A stretch of 64,000 nucleotides of DNA from assembly GCA_003164715.1 (NCBI GenBank), contig PLTZ01000076.1, positions 1 to 64,000 of the forward strand. Reading direction: 5' to 3'. Below are positions 2,583 to 12,558 of the stretch, one piece after another (positions within the stretch are counted from its first letter, which is position 1; the number at the start of each line of letters is the position of its first letter). Below the pieces are notes generated by a model. It was not told where the DNA came from. It did not search any database and worked only from the letters and a program-made list of their open reading frames with translations. The position numbers and the translations under genes were made by a program. The DNA comes from Opitutaceae bacterium. Lineage in GTDB: Bacteria; Verrucomicrobiota; Verrucomicrobiia; Opitutales; Opitutaceae.

Positions 2583-4532
2583 ATGACCGCCGGGCACCTG
2601 CTCCTCTTCGCCGCGCTGGCCATGCTCGTGAGCGCCCTGACCGGGCGCTTTGCGAGGCGCATTTGGCTCGCGTCGACGATCGCCGGGGCTGTGGCGGCTT
2701 TGGCGGCGGCGGTCTGGGTGTTGGCGGGCGGCGCCGAGTTCGAGTGGCGGAGCGGATTTCCGGTCGGCGGCGAGCCGCTGCACGTGCGCTTTGACGCGAT
2801 CAGCGCCTTCTTCATCGCCCTGCTGAGCATTGTGGGGGGGGCGTGCGCGGTCTATTCGAGCGAGTACTGGACGGACGAGGCGCACCCGCGCTCGGCCCGC
2901 GCCGGGCGCGTCTGGTGGAGCGGACTCCTGATGAGCCTGGGCGCCGTGCTGCTCTCCTCCAACGGGCTTCACTTCCTCGTCGCCTGGGAGCTCTTTGCGG
3001 TCAGCTGCTATTTTCTCATCACGCTCGACCGCCAAAGGGCCGAGACGCGCCAGGCGGGCTGGCTCTTCCTCGCCGCCTCGCATGCGGCGACCCTGTGCCT
3101 GTTTGCGTTCTTCGCCACCATGGCCGCCCGGACGGGCAGCTGGGAGCTCGGGCCGATGCGCGAGCGCTCCGACCTGTCGCCGCTGTTCTGGCTCGCGCTG
3201 CTCGGATTCGGCGTGAAGGCCGGCATGTTCCCGCTGCACATCTGGCTGCCCTCGGCCCACGCGAACGCCCCGAGTCACGTCTCGGCGGTTCTGTCCGGCG
3301 TCGCCATCAAGGCGGGCATCTACGGCCTCGTCCGCTTCAGCGGCTGGCTGCCCCCGCCGGCCGGCGCGGGCTGGGTCGTGGCGGCCCTCGGGGTGGCGAG
3401 CGCGGTGCTCGGCGTCGCCTTCGCGCTGGGGCAGCACGACCTGAAGCGGCTCCTGGCCTACCACAGCGTCGAGAACATCGGCATCATCCTGATCGGGCTC
3501 GGATTTGCGCTCGTGGCGCGGGCGCAGGGCAATGCGGCATGGGGCCTTCTGGCGCTCGCAGGGGCTCTCCTGCACGTCTGGAACCACGGGCTGTTCAAGT
3601 CGCTTCTCTTCCTCGGCTCGGGCTCGGTCGTGCACGCCACGGGGACGCGCGAGATGAGCCTGCTTGGGGGCCTTTGGCGCGCGATGCCGTGGACCGCCGG
3701 GCTGTTCATGCTCGGAGCGGTCGCCATTTCGGGCCTGCCGCCGCTCAACGGCTTCATCAGCGAATGGCTCGTGTTCCTTGGGCTCTTTGACGCGGTGAAC
3801 TCCCCCGGGAGCGTCGCGCTCGCCACGATTCCGGCGCTGGTCCTGCTCGGCATGACGGGCGCGCTGGCGCTGGCGTGCTTCACGAAGGTGTGCGGCATCG
3901 TGTTCCTCGGCCAGCCGCGCTCCGGCGCCGCCGAGCGCGCGCGCGAATGCGGGCCGCTCATGATCGGTCCGATGATCGTGCTCGCGGCGGCCTGCCTCGC
4001 CATCGGCCTGGCGCCGGCCTTCTTTTATTTGGCGGTGGCGCGAGCGGCCGCTGAGTGGAATCCCGCCTGGGGCGGCGTGGGGGGACCAGCGTCCCTCGGG
4101 ACCCTCGGGCTCGCCAACATCCTTCTTCTTCTTGTCGGCGCGCTCGCGGCGACGCTCCTCTGGTGGCGCACAATCCGCGCCGGGTTGAGGCGGGCCCCCA
4201 CTTGGGATTGCGGCTACGCTAAGCCGACGGCGAGGATGCAATACACCGCGGGCTCGTTTGCGGGTATCATCAACGAGTGGTTTGCGTGGATCCTGCGGCC
4301 CTGGCGCGAGGAGCGCAGACCCGAGGGGGCGTTTCCCTCCGGCGCCAGCCTCGTGGACCACACGCCGGAGACGGTGCTCGAGCACCTGGTGGAGCCCGCC
4401 GGCGAGGTCGTCATGAGGATCTCCGGCCTTGCGCGGCGCCTGCAGCACGGGCGCCTCCAGTCGTACCTGCTTTACATCGTGATCGGCCTGATCGCGGTCG
4501 CGGCGCTGGTGCTGAGGGCCAACGGCCCGTAG
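2583..4532 (+). CDS. Proton-conducting antiporter-like subunit (HyfB/NuoL family), paralog 1
   Basis: Multi-TM; WELFAVSCYFLITL, FGVKAGMFPLHIWLPSAHANAPSHVSAVLSGVAIKAGIYG, DLKRLLAYHSVENIGIILIG. Confidence 0.92.
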   Translation: MTAGHLLLFAALAMLVSALTGRFARRIWLASTIAGAVAALAAAVWVLAGGAEFEWRSGFPVGGEPLHVRFDAISAFFIALLSIVGGACAVYSSEYWTDEAHPRSARAGRVWWSGLLMSLGAVLLSSNGLHFLVAWELFAVSCYFLITLDRQRAETRQAGWLFLAASHAATLCLFAFFATMAARTGSWELGPMRERSDLSPLFWLALLGFGVKAGMFPLHIWLPSAHANAPSHVSAVLSGVAIKAGIYGLVRFSGWLPPPAGAGWVVAALGVASAVLGVAFALGQHDLKRLLAYHSVENIGIILIGLGFALVARAQGNAAWGLLALAGALLHVWNHGLFKSLLFLGSGSVVHATGTREMSLLGGLWRAMPWTAGLFMLGAVAISGLPPLNGFISEWLVFLGLFDAVNSPGSVALATIPALVLLGMTGALALACFTKVCGIVFLGQPRSGAAERARECGPLMIGPMIVLAAACLAIGLAPAFFYLAVARAAAEWNPAWGGVGGPASLGTLGLANILLLLVGALAATLLWWRTIRAGLRRAPTWDCGYAKPTARMQYTAGSFAGIINEWFAWILRPWREERRPEGAFPSGASLVDHTPETVLEHLVEPAGEVVMRISGLARRLQHGRLQSYLLYIVIGLIAVAALVLRANGP

Positions 4533-4609
4533 GATCCCGGGCCTGCCTTGGCCCGCCGAAAAGTTGATCGCCATCGCCGGCCCAACTGCGGCAAGATCGA
4601 CCCTCACCA

Positions 4610-5317
4610 ATGTACTTGAACCTGATCCAGATTGCCGAGTCGTTCGGCGTGTCCGAGAAGGTCGTGGAGGACTGGATCCGTCGCGAAGGTCTTCCGCACA
4701 CGCCCGACGGCGGCAGGCTCCTGTTCGACCGTGCGCAGGTCGCGAACTGGGCGGCGGTGCGGGGGCTGGCGGCGAAGGCTGGCTTCCTCGCGCCGGTGAC
4801 CCCTGCCTTCGCGACGGGCTTCGCAATCGAGCCGCTGCTGCGCTCGGGCGGGATCTGGCGCGACGTGGCCGCGGCGGACGTGACCGGGGTCTTCGCGCGA
4901 ATCGTCTCCTCGCTGCCGGGCGTGACCCCTGCGCTGCGCCTGTTTCTCAGCCAAAGGCTCTGCGCGAAGGGCGGGGTCAACATCGCCCCGGTGGGGGGCG
5001 GGTTTGCGCTGCCGCACCCGAGCGCCCGCATCGCTCTCGGCCGGGACTCGGGCACGGTGGCGCTCATCCTCCTGCGGGATGCGCTTGAACTGACCGAGCC
5101 GCAGGCCGACGCGGTGCCCGTCACGCGCCTTTTCTTCTTCATTGCGCCGACCCCCCGCGCCCATCTCGACATCCTGGGGAGGCTCAGCCGCAGCCTCGTG
5201 CGCGGGCCCCTGCGCGAGGTGGTGATCCGCGGCGGTGCCGACGAGGAGGTATTCGCGGCCGCCGCCGCGGCTGACAGGGCCGCGCCGGGCGCGGCCGGCG
5301 GGGAAGCCGCATCGTGA
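4610..5317 (+). CDS. HTH (excisionase/MerR-like) - PTS EIIA (fructose/nitrogen type) fusion protein
   Basis: N-term NLIQIAESFGVSEKVVEDWIRREGLPHTPDGGRLLFDRAQVANW; C-term EIIA motif GFALPHPSAR containing the phosphorylatable His. Confidence 0.85.
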   Translation: MYLNLIQIAESFGVSEKVVEDWIRREGLPHTPDGGRLLFDRAQVANWAAVRGLAAKAGFLAPVTPAFATGFAIEPLLRSGGIWRDVAAADVTGVFARIVSSLPGVTPALRLFLSQRLCAKGGVNIAPVGGGFALPHPSARIALGRDSGTVALILLRDALELTEPQADAVPVTRLFFFIAPTPRAHLDILGRLSRSLVRGPLREVVIRGGADEEVFAAAAAADRAAPGAAGGEAAS

Positions 5318-7263
5318 CGGCGGGGCCGCCTCTGCTGCTGGCCGCGCTTTGCCTCGTCTCGGGCGCTGCGTTCGGCCGCCGAAACCCGCGGCTATGGCTC
5401 GCGCTGACCCTGGGCGCCATGGCGGCGGCGTTTGCGGCCGCGCTTCTCGTGGGCGTCGGCGCCGCGGACTGGGAGTGGCGCAGCTCGCTTGCCCCCGGGG
5501 GCGAGCCGGTCCACGTCCGCCTGGACGGGCTCAGCGCGCTCTTTCTTGCGCTCCTGTGCGTCGTCGGAGGGGCGGCCGCGGTCTTCTCGCGCGGGTACTG
5601 GGCCGACGCGGGCCATCCCGGCTCTGCACCGGCCAACCGGATGTGGATGAGCCTGCTCCTTGCCGCGATGGGGTTCGTGCTGCTGGCGTCGAACGGCCTG
5701 CACTTCCTCATCGGCTGGGAGCTGTTCACGGTGAGCGCGTACTTCCTGATCACGCTCGAGCGGGAGCACCGGGCGGTGCGGGCTGCGGGCTGGCTGTATC
5801 TGGCGGCGTCGCACGCCGGGACCCTTTGCCTGTTCGCGTTCTTTGCGGCGCTCTCGGTGCGGACGGGTAGCTGGGACCTCGGTCCCCTGCGCGAGCGCGC
5901 CGACCTGGCGCCGCTGTTCTGGCTTGCGCTCTTCGGGTTCGGCGTGAAGGGCGGCATGTTCCCGCTCCACGCATGGCTTCCCTCGGCCCATGCGAACGCG
6001 CCGAGCCATGTCTCCGCGCTGATGTCGGGCGTCGCGATCAACATGGGGCTCTACGGTATCCTGCGGTTCAGCGGCTGGCTGCCGGTTCCCGCGGGTGCCG
6101 GTTGGGCCGTCATCGGCATCGGGGCGGCCGGGGCGCTGCTAGGGATAGCCCTGGCGTTCGTGCAGACCGACCTCAAGCGGCTCCTCGCCTACTGCTCGGT
6201 CGAGAACGTGGGCGTCATCCTGATAGGCCTCGGCGGGGCGCTCCTCGGCGTGACGCACGGCGACGAGCCCTGGGCCGAGCTGGCGCTGGCCGGGGCCCTG
6301 CTTCACGTCTGGAACCACGGTCTCTCGAAGGCGCTGCTTTTCTTTGGCGCGGGCTCGGTGCTTCACGCCACCGGCAAGCGGGAGATGACACAGATGGGGG
6401 GGCTTTGGCGCGCGATGCCGTGGACGGCGGGGTTGTTTGCCTTCGGCGCCCTGGCGATCTCGGGGCTTCCCCCGCTCAACGGGTTCGTCGGCGAGTGGCT
6501 CGTGTACCTCGGCCTACTGAACGCGGCGGCGAGCCGCGGCTCCGCGGTGTGGGCCGTGATACCGGCGGTGATCGTCCTCGGCATGGCGGGCGCCTTGGCG
6601 CTGGCGACGTTCGTGAAGGCGGGCGCGACGGTCTTTCTCGGGGCGCCGCGCACGAGGGCGGCGCAGGACGCCCGCGAGTGCGGGCCGCTGATGGCTGCGC
6701 CGATGCTGGCCCTTGCGGGCGCATGCGCGGCGATCGGGCTGGCCCCGGTCCTCTTCTGGAGGCCGCTCGAGCGGGCCGCGGGCTCGTGGCACCCGCAGTG
6801 GGTCGACTCGGGGGCGCCGGCGCCGCTCGCCGCGCTCGGCGCGGCCCACGTTGCGATGGCCGTCGCCGGCTTCGCCGCGGCGGCGTTCCTCTGGAGGAAG
6901 GTCCGCGTAAACGGCGTCCGGCGGGCGCCGACCTGGGACTGCGGCTATGCGACGCCCACGGCCCGCATGCAGTACTCGGGCGGCTCCTTCAGCGGGATCG
7001 CGATGGGATGGTTCGCCGGGATCCTGGCGCCAGAGCGCACCCGGCACCGTCCGCACGGGCCGTTCCCCGTCCGCGCGAGCTGGCTGGAGCGGGTGCCGGA
7101 CACGGTGCTTGAGCGGGTGATGGCGCCCGCGGGCGGCGCGGTGATGCGTGTGTCGAGCGCGACCCGCAGGCTGCAGCACGGCAGACTCCAATTCTACATC
7201 GTGTATTTGCTGTGCGGCCTCACAGTTGTGGCGCTCTTGACGTGGATAGGAGCCGGGCAATGA
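5314..7263 (+). CDS. Proton-conducting antiporter-like subunit (HyfB/NuoL family), paralog 2
   Basis: Same length as 2583..4532 (649 aa) and clearly homologous along its length (WELFTVSAYFLITL, FGVKGGMFPLHAWLPSAHANAPSHVSALMSG). Confidence 0.92.
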   Translation: MTAGPPLLLAALCLVSGAAFGRRNPRLWLALTLGAMAAAFAAALLVGVGAADWEWRSSLAPGGEPVHVRLDGLSALFLALLCVVGGAAAVFSRGYWADAGHPGSAPANRMWMSLLLAAMGFVLLASNGLHFLIGWELFTVSAYFLITLEREHRAVRAAGWLYLAASHAGTLCLFAFFAALSVRTGSWDLGPLRERADLAPLFWLALFGFGVKGGMFPLHAWLPSAHANAPSHVSALMSGVAINMGLYGILRFSGWLPVPAGAGWAVIGIGAAGALLGIALAFVQTDLKRLLAYCSVENVGVILIGLGGALLGVTHGDEPWAELALAGALLHVWNHGLSKALLFFGAGSVLHATGKREMTQMGGLWRAMPWTAGLFAFGALAISGLPPLNGFVGEWLVYLGLLNAAASRGSAVWAVIPAVIVLGMAGALALATFVKAGATVFLGAPRTRAAQDARECGPLMAAPMLALAGACAAIGLAPVLFWRPLERAAGSWHPQWVDSGAPAPLAALGAAHVAMAVAGFAAAAFLWRKVRVNGVRRAPTWDCGYATPTARMQYSGGSFSGIAMGWFAGILAPERTRHRPHGPFPVRASWLERVPDTVLERVMAPAGGAVMRVSSATRRLQHGRLQFYIVYLLCGLTVVALLTWIGAGQ

Positions 7264-8168
7264 CGTTCATCCTCGAGACCCTTCTTCGTTTGGCAGCGTG
7301 GCTCCTCGCGGCCCCGCTGCTTCCGGGCATCATCAACAAGGTGAAGGCATGGATCGCGGGGCGCCGCGGGCCGCCGGTGCTGCAGCTCTACTACGACCTG
7401 GCGCGGCTCTGGGGCAAGGGCGTCGTCATGAGTACGCTCGCGTCGCCCGGGTTCATTGTGGGCCCAGCCGTGGCGTGGGTGGCCCTGGTGGGTGCCGCGC
7501 TCATCATGCCCCTAGGGGGAGCGGGGGGGGCGCTCAGCTTCCGGGGCGACGTGCTGCTGCTCGTCTACTTGCTCGCCCTGGCGAGGTTCTGCACCGCGTG
7601 GGCCGCGCTTGAGACCGGCTCGGCCTTCGAAGGCATGGGCGCAGCCCGCGAGGTGAGCTACGCGGTGCTGTCCGAGGTGGCCCTGATCACGGCGGTGCTG
7701 TCGCTCAGCGTCCAGACCGGCAACGTGACGCTGACCGACATGCTGGCGCTGTCGGTCGGCTCGGGGGCTGTGCTCCTGGCGGCGGGCCTGTTCGCCGTGC
7801 TCCTCGCGGAAAACTGCCGGGTGCCGTTCGACGACCCGAACACGCACCTGGAGCTCACGATGATCCACGAGGCCATGATCCTCGACCACAGCGGCCCGCC
7901 CCTGGCGGTGATCCTGCACGGGGCGTCGCTCAAGCTCCTACTCTTTGCCGTGCTGCTGAGCCAAGTGGTGCTGCCCCTGGGGCGGCTGTCGCCGCTCGCC
8001 GCGGCCGGAGCGCTCGTGGGCACCGTGCTCGGCGTGACGGTTGCCATCGGGCTCGTTGAGTCGCTGACGGCGCGCTTCGCCTTCCGGCGCGTGCCGCTGC
8101 TCCTCACGGCCGCGTTCCTGCTGTGCCTTTTCGCACTGCTGCTCGCGAGGAAGGGGGGCGTGGGTTGA
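7260..8168 (+). CDS. HyfC/NuoH-like membrane subunit
   Basis: ATG at 7260 overlaps upstream TGA; NuoH/HyfC pattern (AWIAGRRGPPVLQLYYDLARLWGKG; CRVPFDDPNTHLELTMIHEAMILDHSGP). Confidence 0.9.
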   Translation: MTFILETLLRLAAWLLAAPLLPGIINKVKAWIAGRRGPPVLQLYYDLARLWGKGVVMSTLASPGFIVGPAVAWVALVGAALIMPLGGAGGALSFRGDVLLLVYLLALARFCTAWAALETGSAFEGMGAAREVSYAVLSEVALITAVLSLSVQTGNVTLTDMLALSVGSGAVLLAAGLFAVLLAENCRVPFDDPNTHLELTMIHEAMILDHSGPPLAVILHGASLKLLLFAVLLSQVVLPLGRLSPLAAAGALVGTVLGVTVAIGLVESLTARFAFRRVPLLLTAAFLLCLFALLLARKGGVG

Positions 8169-8806
8169 ACTCGACGCTCAACCTCCTGATCGGCATGGCG
8201 ATGGGCCTGAACCTGCTGGCGCTCGGCGGCAGCCGAGTGCCGCAGGTGATACGCGCGGTTGCCGTGCAGGGGATCGTGCTCGGTGTCTTGCCGCTGCTTC
8301 TGGAGCACGACTTTGGCTGGCTGGTCGCTCTGGTCGCGGTGATCACGGTGATGGTCAAGGGATTCCTCATCCCCGGGCTCCTGAACCGCGCGATGCGCGC
8401 CGCAAAGATCGAGCGTGAGATCGATCCGTTCATCGGATTCGTGCCGTCGCTGCTGCTCGGGGCGGGCGGGACGATCGCGGCGGTCGCCGGGGCTCGGATG
8501 CTGCCGCTGCTCCCCGAGCACGCCGGGACGCTCCTGGTGCCCGGCGCGCTGGCGTCCATCTTCACGGGCTTCATCCTTCTGATCGGCCGCGCGAAGGCGA
8601 TCTCTCAGGTCTGCGGCTACCTGATCCTAGAGAACGGGATCTACCTGTTCGGCCTGCTGCTGATCCGCTCGACGCCCCTCCTGGTGGAGTCGGGGATACT
8701 GCTGGACCTCACCGTGGGCGTCTTTGTCATCGGCATCATCGTCGACCGGATCCAGAGGGCGTTCGACTCGCTCGACACCCGCAAGCTCACCGTGCTCCGC
8801 GAATGA
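8165..8806 (+). CDS. HyfE-like membrane subunit (probable TTG start at 8165)
   Basis: HyfE/NuoK-like multi-TM protein, TTGA overlap with upstream stop, collinear with hyf genes. Confidence 0.8.
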   Translation: MNSTLNLLIGMAMGLNLLALGGSRVPQVIRAVAVQGIVLGVLPLLLEHDFGWLVALVAVITVMVKGFLIPGLLNRAMRAAKIEREIDPFIGFVPSLLLGAGGTIAAVAGARMLPLLPEHAGTLLVPGALASIFTGFILLIGRAKAISQVCGYLILENGIYLFGLLLIRSTPLLVESGILLDLTVGVFVIGIIVDRIQRAFDSLDTRKLTVLRE

Positions 8807-10245
8807 GGGAACTCCTGCTCATCATCGTCCCGCTTGCCGGCGCGGCCCTCGCGGTCCTTTGGCCGAGCGAGCGTACGCGCCCCTGGCTCATGCCCGCCGT
8901 CGGCGTCGTGCACACCGCGCTCGCCCTCTGGCTGCTGTTCAGCCCGCCCCAGGTCGACCCCGGCGCGTGGTTCGGGTTCGACCCCATCGCTCGCGCGGTG
9001 CTCCCCGCGGTCTCGATTCTCTTTCTCGCCTGCGCCGCCTACGGCGTCTCCTACCTCAGGATCCGGACGGAGCGGCCCAACCGCGTGTTTGTGGCTTCGC
9101 TGCTCGCGATCCTGGGGCTCCTGAGCGCCGGGCACCAGGCGAGGCACCTGGGCATGCTCTGGATCACCACCGAGGCGGTGACGCTCACGGCGGTGCCACT
9201 GCTCCACTTCAACGGCACCTCGCGGGCGTTCGAGGCGACCTGGAAATACCTGCTCGTCGGGGGCACGGGCATCGCGCTCTCGCTCCTGGGGTCCTTCTGC
9301 CTCGGGTACGCCTCGGTGCGCGGCGGGGGCAGTGGCGACCTGACCTTCGTCGCGCTCATGGCGCAGGGCCACCTCCTGTCGCGCCCGTGGGTGCTGATCG
9401 CGTGGGTCTTCCTTCTCGTGGGCTACGGCACGAAGATGGGCCTGGCGCCCATGCACACGTGGAAGCCCGACGCCTACGGCGAGGCGCCGAGCATCGTGGG
9501 CGCCATGCTCGCGGGCGGCGTCACCACGGTGGCGTTCACGGCGGTGCTGAGGGTGCGCTCGGTCATCAACGCGGCGGGGGCGGGCGCGGCTGCCGACCTG
9601 ACGCTGCTGGCGATCGGGCTGTTCTCGATGCTGGTCGCCGTCCTCTTCCTCCTGGGCACGCGCGACTTCAAGCGGATGCTGGCGTACTCGAGCGTCGAGC
9701 ACATGGGGATCCTGGTCATTGGCGCCGCCCTCGGCCCCGCGGGCATGTGGGCGGCCTTCTTCCACGTGTGGAGCAACAGCCTCACGAAGGGCGCGCTCTT
9801 CCTGAGCGCGGGCAATATCCGGCGGGCCGCCGGCGCGCGCACCGTCGACGAGGTGCGGGGCATGTCCTCCGTCACGCCCCAGTCGGCCGCCATCTTTGTC
9901 GCGGGGATGTTCGCGGTGACCGCGTGCCCGCCGTTCGGCCCGTTCTTCAGCGAGCTGCTCGTTGTGCGCGCCGCGGTCGCGACGGGCCACGTCGGCGCGG
10001 CGGCCATGTTCCTTGGCTGCCTCTTGTTCGCGTTCTTCGGCCTGACGCGGCTCGTCTTCGCCGTGGTCGACGGCAAGCCGCGCCCGGGCGAGGGGGCCGA
10101 GGGCAAGCGGATCCGGGAGAAGGCGGGCGTCATTATCCCGCCGCTGGTCCTCATGGGGATCTCACTCTGGCTCGGCCTCGCGACGCCGCACGCTCTGCAG
10201 GCCGCCTGGACGGACGCCGTCCATCAGCTCTTCCCCGCGCCATGA
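8803..10245 (+). CDS. HyfF-like (NuoL/M family) proton-conducting subunit
   Basis: GYGTKMGLAPMHTWKPDAYGEAPSIVGAMLAGG, DFKRMLAYSSVEHMGILVIG, HVWSNSLTKGALFLSAG. Confidence 0.92.
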   Translation: MRELLLIIVPLAGAALAVLWPSERTRPWLMPAVGVVHTALALWLLFSPPQVDPGAWFGFDPIARAVLPAVSILFLACAAYGVSYLRIRTERPNRVFVASLLAILGLLSAGHQARHLGMLWITTEAVTLTAVPLLHFNGTSRAFEATWKYLLVGGTGIALSLLGSFCLGYASVRGGGSGDLTFVALMAQGHLLSRPWVLIAWVFLLVGYGTKMGLAPMHTWKPDAYGEAPSIVGAMLAGGVTTVAFTAVLRVRSVINAAGAGAAADLTLLAIGLFSMLVAVLFLLGTRDFKRMLAYSSVEHMGILVIGAALGPAGMWAAFFHVWSNSLTKGALFLSAGNIRRAAGARTVDEVRGMSSVTPQSAAIFVAGMFAVTACPPFGPFFSELLVVRAAVATGHVGAAAMFLGCLLFAFFGLTRLVFAVVDGKPRPGEGAEGKRIREKAGVIIPPLVLMGISLWLGLATPHALQAAWTDAVHQLFPAP

Positions 10246-11720
10246 GCACGCCCTCGTTCGCCCTCCTCGCCAACGGCACAAGCATCCCCTGGGCGGGTGT
10301 GCCCGAGTGGCCCGCGCCGGAGCTTGTCCAGAGGACCGGGGCTGAGCTCGAACGCGGGGCCCGGCTTTGCGCGTGGTTCGGGGTGCCCGAGGTGGGCGCG
10401 ACCCGCCTGGTGGCCCTTATCGCGTTCGACGCAGACAACACGCTGGCCGTCGGGCGAAGCGCGCCGTTCGCCGGCGCCTATCCGTCCCTCACGCCCTCCC
10501 ACCCGCAGGCGCACATGTTCGAGCGCGAGGTCTGGGAGAGCCACGGCCTGAGGCCCGAGGGGCACCCGTGGCTCAAGCCCGTCCGCAGGGGCGCCGGCGG
10601 CGCTCCCGCCATGGGGGAGTTCTTCCGGGTGGGCGGCGGCGAGATCCACGAGGTCGCCGTCGGGCCGGTCCACGCCGGCATCATCGAGCCCGGGCATTTC
10701 CGGTTTCAGTGCGCGGGCGAGGAGGTCATTCACCTTGAGATCGCGCTCGGCTACCAGCACCGCGGCGTTGAGAACGCCCTCGTGGGGGGCCCGCGCCGCG
10801 CGACGATGAGCCAGATCGAGGCCGTCGCCGGCGACACCACGATCGGCCACGCGACTGCGTACGCCTGGGTGGCGGAGGCCCTCGCCGGGGCCGAGGCGCC
10901 GCTGCGCTCCCAGTGGCTGAGGGCCGTCGCGCTCGAGCTCGAGCGCCTTGCCAACCACACGGGGGATCTCGGGGCGCTGGCGAACGACGTCGCGTTCCTG
11001 CCGACGGCGTCGGCGTGCGGGAGGATCCGCGGCGATTTCCTTAACTTGACGGCCCTGATCTGCGGCAACCGCTTCGGGCGGGGCCTGGTGAGGCCGGGCG
11101 GCTGCCGCTTCGACCTGGAGCCCGGGCGCCTCGAACAACTGACCGGCCAGCTCGCCGGCGCGCTGTCCGAGGCGGAGCTGGCGATCGGGTGGCTCTGGGA
11201 CGCCGCCTCCGTCCGGTCGCGCTTTGAGGACGCGGGCACGCTTCACGCGAAGCAGGCGACGGACCTCGGGATGGTGGGGCCCGCGGCGCGGGCGTGCGGG
11301 ATCGTGCGCGATGCGCGCTTCGACCATCCGGCCGGCTGGCACCGCCTCGCGCAGGCGCCGGTGGCGGTCTGGCCGGGCGGCGACGTGCTTGCGCGCGCGC
11401 GGGTGCGCTGGCTCGAGGTGCAGCGCTCGGGCCGGTTCCTGCGCGAGCAGCTCGCAGCGGCGGTCGACGGGGAGATGCGGGCCGAGCTGGCGCCCGCGGC
11501 GGGCGACACGCTCGCGGTCGCCCTGGTCGAGGGATGGCGCGGCGAGGTGTGCCACGTGGCCCTGACGGATGCCGGTGGACGCTTTCGAAGCTACAAGATC
11601 GTCGACCCCTCGTTTCACAACTGGATCGGCCTCGCGATGGCGCTTCGCGGGGAGGCCATCTCAAACTTTCCCATCTGCAACAAGAGCTTCAACCTCTCCT
11701 ATTGCGGCTTCGATCTCTAG
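10242..11720 (+). CDS. HyfG/NuoCD-like large subunit lacking [NiFe] ligand cysteines (Ehr-type)
   Basis: ATG at 10242 overlaps hyfF stop; N-terminal NuoC-like domain then HLEIALGYQHRGVE...; CxxC sites replaced (AGDTTIGH and NKSFNLSYCGFDL). Confidence 0.88.
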   Translation: MSTPSFALLANGTSIPWAGVPEWPAPELVQRTGAELERGARLCAWFGVPEVGATRLVALIAFDADNTLAVGRSAPFAGAYPSLTPSHPQAHMFEREVWESHGLRPEGHPWLKPVRRGAGGAPAMGEFFRVGGGEIHEVAVGPVHAGIIEPGHFRFQCAGEEVIHLEIALGYQHRGVENALVGGPRRATMSQIEAVAGDTTIGHATAYAWVAEALAGAEAPLRSQWLRAVALELERLANHTGDLGALANDVAFLPTASACGRIRGDFLNLTALICGNRFGRGLVRPGGCRFDLEPGRLEQLTGQLAGALSEAELAIGWLWDAASVRSRFEDAGTLHAKQATDLGMVGPAARACGIVRDARFDHPAGWHRLAQAPVAVWPGGDVLARARVRWLEVQRSGRFLREQLAAAVDGEMRAELAPAAGDTLAVALVEGWRGEVCHVALTDAGGRFRSYKIVDPSFHNWIGLAMALRGEAISNFPICNKSFNLSYCGFDL

Positions 11721-11739
11721 GCCGCAGATCCCGGCCACC

Positions 11740-12558
11740 ATGTTCGCCGTCGACACCTTCACCCACCGCCTGAAGCGAGGCTGCGAGACGATGGCCTATC
11801 CGAAGGGGCCGGCGCCGGCGCTGCCCGACCGGCACGGCGGGGCGCTGCGCGTCGACGCCGCGAAATGCCCCGACGGGTGCGCCGAATGCCTGCCGGTGTG
11901 CCCGACCGAGGCCGTGACGCGGCCCCCGGGGGGCGGCGTCTCGCTCGACCTCGGCCGGTGCCTCTTTTGCACGGCGTGCGTCGAGGCCTGCCCGCACGGG
12001 GCGATCACCCAAACCGGCGACCACCGGATGGCCGTGCGGCGGCGGGAGGACCTCGTGCTCGGCCAGCCGGGCCACGAGGAGGTGCGGCTCGCCGCGGCGC
12101 TTGACGAGAAGCTCCGCAAGCTCTTCGGCCGCTCGCTTCGGCTCCGGCAGGTGAGCGCCGGGGGCGACGGCGCGGCGGAGGCGGATCTCAACGTGCTCGG
12201 GACCATCGGTTGGGACCTCGGGCGCTTCGGCATCCAGTTTGTGGCATCGCCGCGGCACGCCGACGGCCTGGTCGTCACCGGCCCCGTGCCGAGGAGCATG
12301 GAGCTGGCGCTCCGCAAGACATGGAACGCCATGCCGGAGCCGAAGATTGTCATCGCGGTCGGCACGTGCGCGATTTCGGGTGGGCCGTTCATCGGAAATC
12401 CCGAGGTGATGAATGGCGTCGAGTCGGTCCTGCCCGTCGACCTCTACATACCGGGATGGCCCCCGCATCCGCTGACCATCCTTGACGGGCTGTTGCGGGT
12501 TCTCGGCCGCCTTGACGAAGGGTCCCGCGCCCAGGTGCCGGCGCAAGTCGGGAGCTGA
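11740..12558 (+). CDS. Fusion of 2[4Fe-4S] ferredoxin (HyfH-like) and NuoB/HyfI-like small subunit
   Basis: CPDGCAECLPVCP and CLFCTACVEACP clusters followed by RFGIQFVASPRHADGLVVTGPV...VDLYIPGWPPHP. Confidence 0.9.
   Translation: MFAVDTFTHRLKRGCETMAYPKGPAPALPDRHGGALRVDAAKCPDGCAECLPVCPTEAVTRPPGGGVSLDLGRCLFCTACVEACPHGAITQTGDHRMAVRRREDLVLGQPGHEEVRLAAALDEKLRKLFGRSLRLRQVSAGGDGAAEADLNVLGTIGWDLGRFGIQFVASPRHADGLVVTGPVPRSMELALRKTWNAMPEPKIVIAVGTCAISGGPFIGNPEVMNGVESVLPVDLYIPGWPPHPLTILDGLLRVLGRLDEGSRAQVPAQVGS

Follow-up and report, generated by a model that had tools for sequence, protein, structure and literature searches.

In the 64,000-nucleotide stretch of Opitutaceae DNA analyzed here (the window), the last gene of an eight-gene Ehr cluster encodes a small subunit, EhrS, in which three of the four ligands of the N2-type iron-sulfur cluster are gone, and this protein belongs to a clade of ten EhrS in which ligand loss is accompanied by constraint on the remaining complex. 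We assign a probability of roughly 45% to the reading, drawn from sequence comparison, that this clade has lost the N2-type cluster and that the complex nevertheless assembles and works without it, using a charge-mimicking pocket and acting as an ion-translocating or ion-gating machine. How electron transfer is coupled to ion pumping in complex I and its relatives is a long-standing question; a lineage that drops N2 yet keeps the complex under full constraint would represent a natural separation of the two processes and a natural test of whether complex I-related machines need their last Fe-S cluster. Should ion movement by the complex persist, that activity would not depend on electron transfer through N2 in this branch. 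The original survey of the Ehr family is reportedly that of Marreiros et al. (2013), and we found no report of an N2-less Ehr or NuoB in the open-access library searched.

Table 1. Genes of the Ehr cluster (2583-12558) in their order along the window, followed by cluster-binding sites within EhrS.
Feature	Position	Strand	Evidence
EhrA-1, HyfB/NuoL-like antiporter-type subunit	2583..4532	+	PF00361 6.5e-49; conserved E136, K212, K243, E394
HTH_17 + PtsN-like EIIA protein, invariant His136	4610..5317	+	HTH_17; 12-homologue profile matches PtsN structures, E 3.8e-7
EhrA-2, second HyfB/NuoL-like subunit	5314..7263	+	PF00361; Asn at K243
EhrD, NuoH/HyfC-like subunit	7260..8168	+	PF00146 2.5e-26
EhrC, HyfE-like membrane subunit	8123..8806	+	hydrogenase 4 membrane subunit model 5.6e-20
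EhrB, HyfF/NuoN-like antiporter-type subunit	8803..10245	+	PF00361; HyfF models
EhrL large subunit (NuoC-NuoD/HycE-like), NiFe ligands absent	10242..11720	+	PF00346, PF00329; ligand positions replaced
EhrS, fused two-cluster ferredoxin + NuoB/HyfI domain	11740..12558	+	translation, domain matches, PDB alignments, model
Ferredoxin motif 1, C43-x3-C47-x2-C50-x3-C54, intact	11866..11901	+	80/80 ferredoxin Cys kept in ten-member clade
Ferredoxin motif 2, C74-x2-C77-x2-C80-x3-C84, intact	11959..11991	+	80/80 ferredoxin Cys kept in ten-member clade
Former CxxC of N2-type cluster, now D143-G-A-A146	12166..12177	+	CxxC in 85/85 intact homologues
C210, sole N2-type Cys left in window EhrS (GTCA)	12367..12369	+	replaced in 7/10 clade members
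Trp240 codon TGG in PGWPP	12457..12459	+	W in 10/10 clade, C in 85/85 outside

Codons and motifs were read from the 272-amino-acid translation of the EhrS gene, which joins a two-motif ferredoxin (approximately residues 36 to 105) to a NuoB/HyfI domain (approximately residues 112 to 258). A sequence-only reading of this gene had reported SAGG-DGAA-E, DLGRFG, PGWPP, and GTCA in its NuoB-like half, and we confirmed all four in the open reading frame (SAGGDGAAE is residues 139 to 147, positions 12154-12180, and DLGRFG is residues 159 to 164). It had also described two retained four-cysteine motifs in the N-terminal half, all eight cysteines of which are indeed present; the extra residue that it pointed out in the first motif is there as well, as a trait of the family rather than a peculiarity of the window gene. 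By alignment to the PDB entries for MbhJ and HycG, residues D143, A146, C210, and W240 coincide with the four N2/G1 cluster ligands, so that three of four are missing and no normal proximal cluster can form, as had been proposed. Other cysteines supplying the cluster, named beforehand as a finding that would overturn this conclusion, could be ruled out, since the NuoB half of the window protein contains C210 only and that of five of the ten clade members is devoid of cysteine.

An AlphaFold2 model of the window EhrS built on a 102-row alignment reached a pLDDT of 88.9 and a pTM of 0.87 (only 13 rows gave a pLDDT of 41.7), and it matches the NuoB-type folds of HycG and MbhJ, with a target-normalized TM score of 0.85 for MbhJ. 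As modeled, the EhrS sequence is compatible with a normal fold minus the cluster; the model is no proof of stability, because AlphaFold omits cofactors and most alignment rows are intact homologues.

We determined how widely the loss extends by aligning Ehr small subunits from two scans: one of the window's own family, in which 42 of 252 genomes had matches, and one of GTDB 220 genomes, from which we took 80 homologous loci, the best 80 of 226 relatives, beyond which further clade members may exist. After removal of duplicates, 85 of the class A EhrS proteins carried cysteine at each of the four ligand positions, whereas ten, drawn from both scans, had W240 and degraded ligands; the CCCC pattern thus occurs in 85/85 outside the clade and 0/10 inside. 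Their residues at positions 143, 146, 210, and 240 read DACW (window), DVCW, NEDW, DDAW, CACW, DADW, SEEW (twice), DDGW, and CESW; PGC has become PGW and the CxxC is broken in every one, and the other ligands were lost repeatedly. Even with the four ligand columns omitted, the EhrS tree groups the ten as one clade arising by a single change (SH-aLRT 96), and a five-gene tree agrees on the clade (85/96). Loss is therefore lineage-wide, and the presence of members in five Opitutaceae genera, including one from a genome assembled as a single 5.96-Mb contig (G174), indicates that it is no assembly error. Likewise, ten distinct homologues from independent assemblies that share PGW and ligand losses, against CCCC in all 85 others, exclude chance or sequencing error. 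Within the genus to which the window belongs, the EhrS of one genome (G180, locus L105) is intact.

Several observations concern the margins of this set. A frameshifted homologue at L125 that appeared ligand-less proved to be two overlapping pieces of an intact gene and was left out. When genomes sampled from the order and the phylum were scanned for DNA encoding PGWPPHP, the matches were mostly due to chance and yielded no further clade member. The two SEEW proteins (L031, 10001-10843; L134, 12250-13107) pair as sisters in the EhrS tree (96) but are separated in the five-gene tree, a hint that operons have exchanged ehrS by recombination.

Constraint on the ten-member clade is evident from several measures. 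Its members retain 80/80 ferredoxin cysteines versus 5/40 N2 cysteines. The ratio of EhrS to EhrL distances is 0.954 in the clade versus 0.967 in intact homologues (0.85 to 1.07 in random sets of ten intact sequences), and the pN/pS of EhrS is 0.245 versus 0.230 in intact relatives. All 135 EhrL columns that are invariant in intact homologues are kept in the clade, as are 93 of 100 such columns in EhrS, the seven broken ones being the four ligands, C15 (Arg in 4/10), and positions 160 and 215, where the changes are mild. When all eight genes are considered, the positions with 90% or greater conservation among intact homologues that most of the clade has lost are the four ligands, R61, L178, and V198 of EhrS, and F368 of EhrL. 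Close homologues with intact ligands, which had been expected to signal local decay, do exist, but the loss marks a supported clade in which purifying selection on EhrS is undiminished and EhrL is fully conserved. The strict retention of N2 in the 85 intact homologues implies that it matters there. As a side observation, C15 (11782-11784, in the RGCETM stretch) is a cysteine in nearly all intact EhrS and differs in its Arg frequency between the two groups (Fisher p 0.0003); it may be functionally tied to N2.

The replacements at the vacated site follow a pattern. Exactly two of positions 143, 146, and 210 are Asp, Glu, or Cys in all ten clade EhrS, with Trp at 240 throughout: an Asp or Cys at 143 goes with exactly one ionizable residue at 146 or 210, and an Asn or Ser at 143 with ionizable residues at both. 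Related pairs in the five-gene tree have swapped the positions (window DAC and L013 DDA; L014 CAC and L065 CES; L017 DAD and L039 DDG). Asp and Glu make up 15 of the 25 replacements against a background of 10%, even though, from the Cys codons TGC and TGT, GAC is two and GAG three changes away. Within-column permutation gave a p value of 0.0013 (0.003 for the nine unique patterns, 0.006 with two pairs merged) and tree simulation with fitted rates gave 0.0002 for the two-Asp/Glu/Cys count. The cells are not fully independent and the pattern was noticed post hoc in ten related sequences, so we take it as a strong lead and not as an established rule. It would suggest a role for cluster charge at the interface and offers a falsifiable rule for new sequences.

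We assigned the window cluster to the Ehr complexes on the basis of its membrane subunits together with an EhrL that lacks both the NiFe cysteines and the quinone-site residues. EhrL aligns to HycE of formate hydrogenlyase, but in the rows inspected VCGIC has become VAGDT and DPCY has become NLSY; by the same kind of reading, Ile and Gly stand at the residues aligned with Nqo4 His38 and Tyr87, which we take, in numbering and role, to be the quinone-site residues. Channel Glu and Lys residues are conserved in EhrB (K211, E384) as in EhrA-1. Neither a NuoEFG NADH-oxidizing module nor a formate dehydrogenase is encoded among the eight cluster genes. Residue 243 of EhrA-2, Asn in the window, is a TM8-type Lys in nearly all homologues and differs in 2 of 7 clade members; ehrA-2 itself is apparently absent from the L014, L028, L068, and L085 operons, where ehrA-1 and the HTH gene are followed by ehrD, so a second antiporter subunit may be optional. 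PtsN proteins control potassium transport in other bacteria, which would fit a role of the complex in ion homeostasis. The HTH_17 and PtsN-like EIIA gene sits between the two ehrA genes or adjoins ehrD in most homologous operons, making a link of PTS-Ntr signaling to Ehr possible, and the cluster-less operon of L031 carries, between its ehrB and ehrL, a further HTH-EIIA-like gene of divergent sequence (7670-8426).

In the mechanism that we favor, Trp240 would occupy part of the emptied cavity and exactly two anionic residues (Asp, Glu, or Cys) would replace the net negative charge of the [4Fe-4S](Cys)4 cluster, by which, we propose, the electrostatics of the EhrS-EhrL interface would be preserved. 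The complex would still assemble and function without N2, as its conservation suggests. We treat as tentative, and on the doubtful side, the claim that evolution swapped the terminal Fe-S cluster for a charge mimic made of protein alone (Trp and exactly two anionic residues), yielding an ion-translocating complex that works without an electron path to the former active site. Electrons would enter the two ferredoxin clusters and find no wire onward into EhrL. Successive clusters in formate hydrogenlyase lie less than 14 Å apart (PMC9474812), and removal of the last one would probably open a gap too wide for efficient tunneling into EhrL. A conformational machine is favored because EhrL lacks both known kinds of active site, NiFe and quinone; the complex would most likely serve to translocate or gate ions at the membrane, with its soluble arm either sensing redox state or relaying a redox- or binding-dependent conformational change. 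The PtsN-like protein of the operon possibly controls the complex.

The two-residue pattern could also reflect a different metal site, in which the acidic or thiol pair, perhaps with Glu147, binds a single Zn, Fe, or Mn in the old pocket and serves a structural or redox role. C210, present in three members, or an acidic pair might likewise hold another metal. All ten members indeed offer two metal-capable side chains, exclusively Asp, Glu, or Cys, and Glu147 is invariant in the aligned set; however, two ligands at shifting positions would be unusual, no His has been recruited to the vacated ligand positions in the clade, and Trp fills one corner in every member, so we consider such a site unlikely. 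Next in order, and unlikely too, is a rerouted path in which the ferredoxin clusters pass electrons to another acceptor docked on EhrS, bypassing N2 and EhrL. Full retention of the ferredoxin ligands shows that those clusters matter, which speaks for this explanation, but no oxidoreductase gene is common to the flanks of the clade operons, and EhrL has kept its conservation without gaining a docking signature.

That the complex is on its way out, with the cluster lost first, would be in line with a 2026 paper in which the Ehr of Geobacter is regarded as drifting and without function (PMC13194489). Several ligands were replaced independently within the clade, and NiFe had already been lost in the family. 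We nonetheless judge decay improbable: reading frames are open and gene clusters present in all ten members across five genera, pN/pS, divergence, and EhrL are as in intact relatives, and the replacements are non-random. Least credible of all is provision of the cluster in trans: another protein, or a second Ehr small subunit that bears N2, would stand in, and the cluster-less EhrS would be a regulatory subunit. In L007/L133 and L134, ehrB and ehrL of the cluster-less operon do enclose a complete further Ehr set whose N2 ligands are intact. However, L012 shows the same nesting with an intact EhrS, and no second Ehr is present in the window genome, where the remaining EhrL matches are two distant NuoD-like genes and the remaining small subunits are two NuoB, one Hox-type, and one Mvh-like protein (the latter two named by eye from sequence). 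The Hox-type gene adjoins a large subunit that retains CYDPCLSC.

We compared the window cluster with known systems. The energy-converting hydrogenase-related family (PMC6349859, PMC10284858) is characterized by a large subunit without NiFe cysteines and by NuoH-like and antiporter-like subunits in the operon, all of which the window cluster shows; the N2-type ligands, usual in Ehr and not defining in those papers, are incomplete in its EhrS. The Geobacter sulfurreducens Ehr (GSU0739-0745; PMC7894505), compared by its description rather than its sequence, is alike in having a large subunit without NiFe ligands, NuoH-like, HyfE-like, and antiporter-like subunits, and two NuoL-like EhrA genes, whereas the window clade additionally lacks the N2-type ligands in EhrS. 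The best PDB matches in sequence and fold were E. coli formate hydrogenlyase (HycG/HycF/HycE, 7z0s) and Pyrococcus Mbh (6cfw), EhrS resembling HycF and HycG fused; unlike these, the window Ehr has neither G1 ligands in full, nor a NiFe site, nor a formate dehydrogenase, and by the standards of a group 4 [NiFe] hydrogenase its CxxC pair is replaced and its proximal [4Fe-4S] cluster retains one of four ligands. With complex I (NuoB/NuoD/NuoI) it shares the homologous N2 position and a ferredoxin pair equivalent to N6a/N6b; in contrast, the tandem cysteines, N2 itself, the quinone-site His and Tyr, and the NuoEFG module are wanting. The channel Glu and Lys residues of its NuoL/M/N-like subunits are those expected of a putative antiporter-like machine. 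In the same bacteria, class B Ehr sets (e.g., L007, 7445-8341) often adjoin a class A operon, being nested between its ehrB and ehrL in L007 (756-8341), L012 (1-2051, partly visible), and L134 (3067-10619), lying 3' of it in L028, L045, L068, L074, and L085, and preceding it in L127. They too combine a fused ferredoxin-NuoB small subunit with an EhrL without NiFe ligands; unlike the window protein, class B EhrS keeps all four N2 ligands (CNGC) and, of the ferredoxin cysteines, only C54, C74, C77, and C80, one cluster's worth.
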